A stretch of 64,000 nt of DNA from Gammaproteobacteria bacterium (GTDB taxonomy: Bacteria; Pseudomonadota; Gammaproteobacteria; Xanthomonadales; SZUA-36), in assembly GCA_030431095.1 (NCBI GenBank), contig JAUIJU010000003.1, positions 1-64,000 of the forward strand, read 5' to 3'. Position 1 is the stretch's first letter. Every line of letters begins with the position of its first letter. Below, one piece after another: positions 58,543-64,000 of the stretch. Both the position numbers and the translations under genes were made by a program. A model generated the notes under the pieces. It had not been told where the DNA came from and ran no database searches. It saw nothing but the letters and a program-made list of their open reading frames with translations.

Positions 58543-58740
58543 TGGCTTTGTTGGCCGGTGTCGGCTGGAGCACCCCGTTGCGGAATGGGGACGTTGGCTT
58601 GTGTTGGTCATGGCGGGTTCTGTTGACCGGGGTCGGCTGAAGCACCCCGTTGCGGGATCGGGACGTTGGCTTGTGTTGGGGGGTGATGGCTTCGTTGGCC
58701 GGTGTCGGCTGGACGACCCCTTTCCGGGATCGACGCCGTT
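58543..58740 (+). repeat. 72-bp tandem repeat, about 2.7 units
   Basis: tcggctgg(a)gcacccc recurs at 561, 633 and 705 (58xxx), a period of exactly 72 bp. Units diverge by several bases. The array starts at the last codon of the propeller gene: gtgatggctt(t/c)gttggccgg is shared by unit 1, where it contains the TGA stop, and unit 3. A related single unit lies near 63421-63470. Confidence 0.85.
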
Positions 58741-58812
58741 GGCCTTCGGCTTCCCTCTCTGCACCTGCTCTTGGTGGGGTCGGCGCGACAAATCTTCCTG
58801 ATTTGACGCGCC

Positions 58813-58838
58813 TCATTTGGCCATCCCTGGCCAAATGA
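58813..58838. repeat. Perfect 11-bp hairpin in repeat module, version 1
   Basis: TCATTTGGCCA-TCCC-TGGCCAAATGA is a perfect 11-bp stem. It occupies the same place, between a CGCC end and the conserved ccccagtcgctccgg, as different hairpins in the two other versions of the module. Confidence 0.8.
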
Positions 58839-58897
58839 CCCCAGTCGCTCCGGCTTGCTCGGCAACGGCGCCTGAAAGATCCCTACAAGAGGTCATC

Positions 58898-59061
58898 CAG
58901 CCGCCCCCTGCATCGAGACCCCCCACCCCCAGACATTTTGTTGGGGTGCTTTCTTGTCACCCTACCGGGCCTTGTAGGCTGGGAAGTGCGTTTAGCACCA
59001 TGGTGCCGCGCCACGTGGCCTCCGTGGTTCGGCCCCTTCGAGTCGAACGGGGCGGCGTGCA
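58898..59061 (+). repeat. 164-bp core repeat, copy 1
   Basis: It aligns without gaps to 63641-63804 with 6 mismatches (158/164 identical). It contains a terminator-like hairpin at its left (58924-58957) and near its right end a palindrome-like hairpin GCCCCTTCGA-G-TCGAACGGGGC with one bulged C. Of the six changes several would alter amino acids in the only long frame, so it does not look protein-coding. Confidence 0.9.
58924..58957 (+). terminator. Terminator-like hairpin in core repeat
   Basis: CACCCC...GGGGTG with an internal A-T pair is followed by CTTTCTTGT. The same structure is kept in copy 2 (63667-63700). It may end the propeller-gene transcript, about 380 nt after its stop. Confidence 0.5.
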
Positions 59062-59213
59062 GGCGGGAAAACCGGTGAAGACGGCTTTTGTCGTTCGAGC
59101 CAATATGTTCCTGGCTCCGGTTCATCCGCTGGGCAGCCCCGCACACTGCGCCGGACCCCGCCATTGACGGCAGCCGCGAGGAGCGCCCAGCAATCCCGGC
59201 AATAGTTCACCCC

Positions 59214-59294
59214 TGCAGACCGCTTTTCCTTACGGCCCGGGAGCCTGTTCTGTGCAAGCGGATAACAGGTAAGACTCGGTGCCCCAGAAGAACC
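59214..59294 (+). repeat. Distal repeat block, copy 1
   Basis: It aligns without gaps to 63920-64000 with about 10 mismatches over 81 bases; it starts tgcagaccgcttttcctta and ends gccccagaagaacc. The stretch between core and distal block differs completely between the copies (152 against 115 nt), so two conserved parts flank unique DNA. Confidence 0.85.
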
Positions 59295-59337
59295 CCACCC
59301 AAAGAAAGTGATGACCGGGTCGGGTTCTCCGATGCAA

Positions 59338-59554
59338 GGGAACGGGTGGGTCCCCCTTGGGGCGGGCCATTAAGGAGAGAGCCGAGCGACCGGAGCGACT
59401 GGGGAAAGCCGCCTGCAGCGGCTTTAGGCGAGCCTCGTGATGAAGCACGAGCCCGGGAGCGCATCTAAGCGAGCCGTTCCCACCAAGCGCAGGAAGTCGA
59501 GGGAAGCCGAAGGCCGAACGACAGGCCCGCCCCAAGGGGGACCCACCCGTTCCC
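59338..59554. mobile_element. Putative 217-bp miniature element with 31-bp perfect inverted ends
   Basis: gggaacgggtgggtccccct... (59338-59368) is the exact reverse complement of 59524-59554, 31 of 31 bases. Between the arms lies an inverted copy of the hairpin module (59381-59515), which matches 63471-63606 in reverse complement and carries the hairpin AAAGCCGC-CTGCA-GCGGCTTT. No coding sequence is present and no clear target-site duplication is visible. It resembles a MITE, but mobility is inference. Confidence 0.6.
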
Positions 59555-59613
59555 GGCCAACACAGCAACCCAACCCGACCAGGTCAATCACGGCCGAAAC
59601 CCGCCCAGGTCAA

Positions 59614-60906
59614 TCAGGAAAGCCCCCTGAATACCCCACCCGCAGCCCCAATCGTTTCTCTCAGGTCTTCCTCCGTGTGCGCCTGCGACACGAATCCCGC
59701 CTCGAACGCCGAGGGCGCCAGGTAGACGCCGGCATCCAGCATGCCGTGGAAAAAGCGCGGAAAGGCTTCCAGGTCGCAGGCCATGACGCCTTCGAAGCCC
59801 GTGACCTCGGGCGCGTCGGTGAAGAAGAAGCCGAACATGCCGCCCGCCTGGGCAAAGGCCATGGGCACGCCGGCGGAAGCAGCGGCTTCGCGCAGGCCGT
59901 CGACCAGCATCGTGGTCTTGGCTTCCAGTTCTTCATAGAAGCCCGGCACGGTGATCAGGTCCAGGTTGGCCAGGCCGGCCGCCATGGCCACCGGATTTCC
60001 GGACAGGGTGCCGGCCTGGTAGACCGGCCCCAGAGGCGCGACCTGCTCCATCAGTTCCCGCTTGCCGCCGAAAGCGCCCACCGGCATACCGGCCCCGATC
60101 ACCTTGCCGAACGTCGACAGGTCCGGGGTGACACCGAAACGCGCCTGGGCGCCGCCCAGGGCCACGCGGAATCCGGTCATGACCTCGTCGAAGATCAGGA
60201 CGCAACCGTGCTCGTCACACAACCGGCGCAGGCCTTCCAGGTAACCTTCCACGGGCAGAATGCAATTCATGTTGCCGGCCACCGGTTCGACGATGATGGC
60301 CGCGACCTCGTCTCCGGATACTTCCAGCGCCTGGCGCAAGGCTTCCAGGTCATTGAACGGCAGGGTCATGGTCAAATCGGCCAGTGCGGCGGGCACACCC
60401 GGCGAATTGGGCACCCCCAGCGTCAGCGCGCCACTACCCGCCTTGACCAGGAAGGAATCGGCGTGACCGTGATAACAGCCCTCGAACTTGATGATGCGAT
60501 CCCGCCCGGTGGCGGCGCGGGCCAGCCGAATGGCGCTCATGGTGGCCTCGGTGCCCGAATTGACCATGCGCACCAGGTCCAGCGAGGGCACCAGTTCGCA
60601 CAGGCGTTCGGCCATCGTGACCTCGCCCGGCGCCGGCGCGCCGTAGCTCAGACCCCGTGCGGCCGCGTGTTGCACCGCACGGATCACATCCGGATGTGCG
60701 TGGCCGGCGATCATTGGACCCCAGGAACCCACGTAGTCGATGTAGGCGCGCCCATTGACCGCGTACAGTCGCGCGCCCTCGGCGCGTTCGAAAAACAGCG
60801 GATCGCCACCCACGCCGTTGAACGCGCGCACCGGCGAATTGACGCCGCCGGGTATCCGCGCCCGCGCCCGTTCGAGCAGGTCGGTGTTACTGAGCATGGC
60901 GTTCAT
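59614..60906 (-). CDS. hemL: Glutamate-1-semialdehyde 2,1-aminomutase
   Basis: This 430-residue PLP enzyme makes 5-aminolevulinate in the C5 haem pathway. It has [50 protein letters not shown] and the PLP lysine Lys268 in [18 protein letters not shown] lies 6 nt before the ATG at 60906. Divergent from rubredoxin across 231 nt. Its 3' side abuts the repeat region. Confidence 0.97.
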
Positions 60907-62365: not shown

Positions 62366-62695
62366 TCAGGCCTCGACCACCTCTGCGTCGGGTGCGTTGG
62401 CGGCAACAGACTTGATGCCGTTGGCGCAACCGCTGGTGGACTTGTACATCTGGCTCTTGCCGATGGGCTGGCCGTTGGCGGCCTTGAGCACGAAATAGCT
62501 GCGTCCGTCCTTCGCGGTCTTCACCTCGAAGCGTGCTTCGTTCTGGGAGTTCTTGCGCACGGACTCGATGCCGTTGGCGCAGGACTTGCGGGTCTTGTAG
62601 CCCTCGCCGGACAGGATGACCTGTCCATTGGTTGCCTTGAGCACGAACGTGTCCTGCCCGTCCTTCCGCTTGGAGCATACGAATTTTCCAGCCAT
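62366..62695 (-). CDS. yegP: YegP family protein (DUF1508, two repeats)
   Basis: The 109-residue protein consists of two tandem DUF1508 repeats: FVCSKRKDGQDTFVLKATNGQ...SCANGIESV and FEVKTAKDGRSYFVLKAANGQ...GCANGIKSV. Each repeat forms a small beta-hairpin/helix unit. Function unknown; E. coli YegP is similar. An 8-bp palindrome lies 80 nt upstream. Confidence 0.92.
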   Translation of the reverse strand: MAGKFVCSKRKDGQDTFVLKATNGQVILSGEGYKTRKSCANGIESVRKNSQNEARFEVKTAKDGRSYFVLKAANGQPIGKSQMYKSTSGCANGIKSVAANAPDAEVVEA

Positions 62696-63328: not shown

Positions 63329-63448
63329 GCGCGCGATGATAGCAGGTGGGGGTGGGGATTTGGCTTGTCTGGGTATGACGGGTCTGTCGGTCGGTTTTGT
63401 TGGGTGGTTCTGTTGGGTGGTTCTGTTGACCGGGATCGGCTGGCGCAC

Positions 63449-63634
63449 CCCGTTACGGGATCGGGACGTTGGCCTTCGGCTGCCCTCGCTGCCCTTCCGC
63501 TTGGTGGGAACGGCTCGCTTGCATGCGCTCCCGGGCTCATGCTTCATCACGAGGCTCGCCTCAGGCCGCTGAAGGCGGCCTGCCCCAGTCGCTCCGGTCG
63601 CTCGGCAACGACCCTTAAAAGATCCCGCAACGGG
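63449..63634 (+). repeat. Hairpin module, version 2, inside an outer inverted repeat
   Basis: CCCGTTACGGGATC (63449-63462) can pair with GATCCCGCAACGGG (63621-63634), 13 of 14 positions. It encloses the module, whose hairpin is CAGGCCGC-TGAAG-GCGGCCTG between the conserved gaggctcgcct and ccccagtcgctcc. The right half of the outer stem resembles the reverse complement of the 72-bp units. Confidence 0.65.
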
Positions 63635-63804: not shown

Positions 63805-63919
63805 CTGCCGGTTCGCTGCCGGAATCAGGCGATCTGAATGCCTGCCTGGTGGCATGACCCCGAGACCGCAAAAAGCCACATTAGACAGCCGACCAACGCG
63901 GTATCGAGAAGGCCCTTAC

Positions 63920-64000
63920 TGCAGACCGCTTTTCCTTACGGCCCGGGAATAACTTTTGTGCAAGCGGGTGATAGGTAAGACGCGGTGCCCCAGAAGAACC
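63920..64000 (+). repeat. Distal repeat block, copy 2 (to window edge)
   Basis: It matches 59214-59294 with about 10 mismatches, clustered in two short stretches, and presumably continues beyond the window. Confidence 0.85.

Follow-up and report, generated by a model that had tools for sequence, protein, structure and literature searches.

The structured module at the left end of a dispersed intergenic element in a gammaproteobacterium belongs to a known RNA family, TwoAYGGAY (Rfam RF01731, clan CL00106; Weinberg et al. 2010, PMC2864571), which is found here in a new organisation. The window analysed here is the whole stretch of 64,000 nt at the start of contig JAUIJU010000003.1. A first-pass annotation of this window had pointed out three versions of one repeat module with differing stems, located at 58738-58868, 59381-59515 (inverted) and 63471-63606, and had regarded them as unlike any described family. 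All three modules and their stems are present at these positions. Version 1 and its relatives, here called type I modules, are TwoAYGGAY RNAs as judged by Rfam covariance-model matches, and the proposal of an undescribed family was given up. Three features had been overlooked: a second hairpin in version 1 at 58782-58812, the minus strand as the Rfam-sense strand, and the position of all three modules at the ends of a larger repeat.

The copy in the window matches RF01731 with 39.1 bits (58776-58841, E 3e-5), below the gathering cut-off of 43, and its sister copy C152 reaches 42.8 bits. The cut-off is exceeded by copies in congeners (43.4-52.3 bits) and by those from unrelated families within the class (48.4-55.8 bits). 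TwoAYGGAY is easily missed in this DNA because a window-wide Rfam scan at the gathering threshold gave no match. With our own covariance model R1, built from 32 aligned type I modules, the type I module of the window scored 92.7 bits (E 1.6e-18 per genome).

The module core extends over 58770-58848 on the minus strand, as delimited by R1 and Rfam, and contains two tandem hairpins with GGA loops. Hairpin 1 (58813-58838, minus strand) reads TCATTTGGCC-ATCCCT-GGCCAAATGA on the forward strand and presents the loop AGGGAU, the complement of its GGA being located at 58824-58826. Hairpin 2 (58782-58812, minus strand) has the loop CAGGAAG, with the GGA complement at 58796-58798, and a stem with an internal loop. 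The pairs of both hairpins covary in relatives. Type I modules thus show the two adjacent hairpins and the enclosing stem, together with covariation, that are expected of TwoAYGGAY.

In the first alignment of 32 type I modules, which was made before any model existed, 22 of 27 pairs showed double-sided changes. R1 gathered 61 distinct sequences, and in the resulting alignment, which was fitted to the structure and hence biased towards it, unlike the first one, 25 of 27 pairs carried double changes (414 double-change cells, 94.3% of cells paired). The covariation score of this set was 0.638, compared to 0.153 ± 0.009 after shuffling and a maximum of 0.09 when the partners were slid. GGA was kept in all 59 first loops and in 59 of 60 second loops, a conservation to which the search model itself contributes, and the two GGA loops are spaced 28-30 nt apart. 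The fold energies of type I modules gave z-scores of -4.2 and -11.6 against shuffled sequences. Of the pairs in the modules, 1.3% were G-U, compared to 8.7% for the lineage's RNase P RNA (Fisher p about 3e-24, with cells that are not independent and a hand-summed RNase P count). The rarity of G-U suggests that a constraint on the pairing acts on both strands or on the DNA itself, or that templated copying refreshes the pairing.

The argument that the structure itself matters, as made in the first-pass annotation, is thus borne out by very strong covariation for version 1 and its relatives, but not for the two versions on which it had been based. These are type II modules. Version 2, the inverted partner of the left module (59381-59515, plus strand), carries the stem AAAGCCGC/GCGGCTTT near 59405-59425, and version 3 (63471-63606, minus strand) carries CAGGCCGC/GCGGCCTG near 63563-63583; the arms 59381-59489 and 63498-63606 are 93% complementary. 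The compensated exchange between these versions is real, but the 20 distinct type II copies resolve into two alleles plus one mismatched copy, so it amounts to about one event and not to repeated covariation. Type II modules are uniform in length and were found in the window's genome only. They have the flanks in common with type I (GCCGAG..CGGAGCGACTGGGG and CCACCAAGCGCAGG..GAGGGAAGCCGAAGGCC), whereas the interior is wholly different. Of the 20 copies, 13 have a degraded second hairpin, the RNAs fold no better than shuffled sequences (z about 0), and the GGA loops that characterise TwoAYGGAY are absent from all 20. Type II is therefore classed as derived from TwoAYGGAY and not as a member. 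Within this genome, type I was found as the left modules of element 1 (see below) and of its 92%-identical copy C152, while all other modules read were type II. In most copies of the window's species, the hairpin pair has been swapped for a GGA-less type II filler and multiplication continued. Amplification is thus independent of the GGA loops, which makes a role of these loops as a mobility signal unlikely. Some type II modules (own-genome copies L005, L007 and L009) carry a nested insert of ~60 bp with the palindrome TTTCGCTTCGCGAAA, always at the same site of their outer part.

The three modules form the ends of a noncoding element of ~0.9 kb, of which at least 11 large copies exist in the window's genome, most of which share 81-93% identity with element 1 where they align; copy counts were derived from searches of an assembly of 3.23 Mb in 178 contigs that is 87% complete. 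The 15-mer CCCCAGTCGCTCCGG occurs there 19 times exactly and 27 times with at most one mismatch, compared to a single occurrence of the reversed control pattern. Element 1 (58625-59600, ends approximate) was delimited by the alignment of near-full own-genome copies and by an empty orthologous site in a relative, G004. It consists of a left module on the minus strand, a noncoding core of 438 bp (58908-59345, 11 aligned copies), a right module on the plus strand and terminal TTGACCGG(G)GTCGG-type repeats. Element 2, placed by alignment of own-genome copies, starts at approximately 63420 with the version 3 module at its left end and continues past the window end at 64000, with its right module near contig position 64096. 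The middle of its core (63815-63920) has been swapped for unrelated sequence, hence even the core is mosaic. The element ends (58544-58759 and 63380-63440, and the right flank 59540-59620) are lengthened by variable numbers of short repeats, of the GTTCTGTTGACCGGGGTCGGCTG type on the left and the CGACC..GGTCAATCAC type on the right, which are inverted versions of each other. Flanks were too diverged and end repeats too variable for reading any target duplication. A protein-coding core was rejected, as Pfam, NCBIfam and PHROG gave no match (best E in PHROG 0.023) and the variable columns were spread evenly over the codon positions (34/42/39). A structured-RNA core was likewise rejected, with a double change in just one of 121 predicted pairs among the 11 aligned copies, as was a phage or plasmid origin, with no relative by DNA or translated search. 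Elsewhere in the window, a small gene on the minus strand (62366-62695) is built of two 51-codon repeats (a 153-bp direct repeat).

Matches to R1 were obtained in 18 of 39 relatives and in 22 genomes of a class-wide sample of 229; G109, G124, G185 and G257 contain at least about 20 modules each. Close pairs (<450 bp) were divergent in 27 of 29 cases: all 12 among the relatives, and 15 class-wide next to one convergent and one direct pair. The stem sequences differ between the partners of one pair. At 51 scorable sites, based on gene calls from a simple codon-usage caller, the neighbouring genes were convergent in 31, tandem in 16 and divergent in 4 cases and no module was located inside a gene; for comparison, 5 of 57 gene junctions in the window are convergent. 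The type II elements of the window's genome are all intergenic. Gene context was discarded as a means to choose the strand: where a single module lies between tandem genes, sense and antisense orientations relative to the upstream gene are about equally frequent. The loop sequences favour Rfam's strand.

At the hemL locus, occupied and empty orthologous sites exist, as expected of a mobile element: hemL and the gene for a 979-aa protein are 1072 bp apart in the window, with element 1 between them, while hemL and the homolog of this gene are convergent and about 50 bp apart in G004, without an element. G001 possesses a module pair between hemL and a different gene, and nothing was found there in G002 and G003. 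A conserved ancestral site was rejected, as the elements of G001 and of the window's genome (G000) have only hemL in common, with a short-chain dehydrogenase gene (named from sequence only) as the other neighbour in G001 versus the 979-aa gene in G000. These two look like independent gains. In four genomes, which represent three genera, modules also flank or directly follow rnpB, the gene for RNase P RNA (G001:C2:251287-252283, L223; G005:C12:4225-5213, L237; G008:C19:22530, L261; G009:C78:523, L242). At locus L099 (G050:C1, about 402900-403600), a convergent pair with GGA loops has stems of 13-16 bp with T-runs and is possibly a distinct TwoAYGGAY-like subtype.

We favour, with a probability of roughly 55%, a TwoAYGGAY element whose hairpins are exposed to CsrA in read-through transcripts while the DNA element spreads non-autonomously. 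The tandem hairpins offer GGA in short loops, as in a two-site ligand of the dimeric RNA-binding protein CsrA. Transcripts running past a gene end into the element would expose these hairpins, and binding of CsrA could then result in its titration or in marking of the 3′ end; the element itself would spread as DNA, non-autonomously. CsrA binding of TwoAYGGAY was proposed before from motif matching (Gardner and Eldai, 2014, PMC4333381). The known reference motifs are the CsrB repeat CAGGA(U/A/C)G and the CsrA SELEX consensus RUACARGGAUGU (PMC7652899). The CsrB-like CAGGA[UAC]G or a form longer by one base was present in 49 of 60 second hairpins, and about a quarter of the second-hairpin loops resemble the fuller SELEX core ACARGGAUGU. 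As the hairpins match these consensuses, read-through RNA probably presents paired CsrA sites. CsrA is encoded in the window's genome and, of 31 genomes searched, in 28, so that, as expected of CsrA-binding sRNAs, fitting loops and an encoded CsrA occur together; its presence fails, however, to separate module-bearing from module-free genomes. The module stems are long and stable, unlike the mostly short-stemmed SELEX ligands of CsrA (PMC7652899), which counts against this reading. We found no sigma-70-type promoter at the modules and a single terminator-like site, which is within chance expectation. The rarity of G-U pairs was counted against a role in RNA only.

This rarity fits a possible but rather doubtful alternative, that the modules are giant REP- or REPIN-like DNA repeats. 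Here a RAYT or another HUH enzyme would act in trans on the paired hairpins as single-stranded DNA, with the GGA loops as its recognition sequence, and any RNA role would be secondary. High copy number, extragenic location, inverted doublets and the proximity to gene 3′ ends, as for REP dimers (PMC3733652, PMC3116915), speak for it, and RAYT-type genes were detected in 11 of 12 module-rich genomes. Nevertheless, the link to a RAYT/TnpA-like transposase suggested in the first-pass annotation was not borne out: none of the RAYT-type genes tested had a module within 1.5 kb, none of 32 Y1-transposase (RAYT-type) loci gave an R1 match above 15 bits, and no RAYT-type gene was found in the window's genome, at its 87% completeness. 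A RAYT gene with adjacent cognate repeats was thus not found. Scored on length and architecture, the unit differs from a REP, which is a single hairpin of 20-40 nt with a GTAG or CGTC tag; it comprises two hairpins over 79 nt, and units measure ~80-200 nt. Moreover, the stems of pair partners are unlike each other, so a doublet cannot form a single matched hairpin, and type II elements have multiplied despite lacking the loops.

The siting between converging genes would also suit a two-way transcription end or 3′-end barrier, at which the hairpins halt polymerase or exonucleases from both sides. Such a barrier needs structure on both strands, so G-U pairs would be avoided, and the strong enrichment between convergent genes, the absence from genes, the fold z-scores, the very low G-U fraction and the modules flanking rnpB in four genomes agree with it. 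We consider it unlikely, since U-tract terminators were no more frequent than by chance, a barrier does not account for GGA being invariant in the two loops of a single strand, and the empty sites, with two genes about 50 bp apart, do without it. That the modules constitute a new structured RNA or DNA family after all, as might be argued from the window copy alone, which stays under the Rfam cut-off, and from type II modules without any family match, is highly improbable given that sister copies with identical architecture in congeners and other families of the class pass the RF01731 cut-off.

TwoAYGGAY was described in 2010 and has stayed an orphan among candidate RNAs. New here are its repetitive, paired, gene-end lifestyle across Gammaproteobacteria and a species-specific derivative that has lost the GGA loops; repetition, back-to-back pairing and siting at converging gene ends make CsrA titration, mobile DNA and 3′-end formation concrete candidates for what it does. 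Should the CsrA reading be true, a dispersed repeat would supply a global regulator with a store of binding sites, linking mobile repeats to post-transcriptional control. Tentatively, and with more doubt than confidence, TwoAYGGAY might be seen as a dispersed, selfish-type gammaproteobacterial element and not as a low-copy sRNA: divergent pairs would travel to gene ends with CsrA decoy sites, their expansion would tune the global regulator, and in the window's species the decoys would have been swapped out while the spread continued.

Compared to known systems, the modules share with TwoAYGGAY the tandem hairpin pair, the AYGGAY-type loops, the common closing stem and the occurrence in Gammaproteobacteria. 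Unlike TwoAYGGAY as described, they are present here in high copy, usually as divergent pairs on dispersed intergenic elements, an organisation of which we found no description in the literature searched, and the type II modules of the window lack GGA loops. With the CsrA-sponge sRNAs CsrB, CsrC and RsmX/Y/Z they have GGA hairpin loops and CAGGA(U/A/C)G repeats in common, but there are two sites per unit and many units per genome, located at gene ends, without a recognisable promoter or intrinsic terminator. MITEs are likewise short, noncoding multi-copy elements with inverted ends that are present or absent at orthologous loci; for the element described here neither a target duplication nor an autonomous transposon was identified, and its inverted ends, unlike those of MITEs, are structured and vary by compensation. 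The REP, BIME and REPIN elements associated with RAYT (PMC3116915, PMC3733652) resemble the modules as extragenic palindromic repeats that form inverted doublets and are biased to convergent and tandem gene junctions, whereas the module unit is several times longer, contains two hairpins, has no adjoining RAYT gene and no established GTAG/CGTC end tag, and is paired with a partner of different stems.
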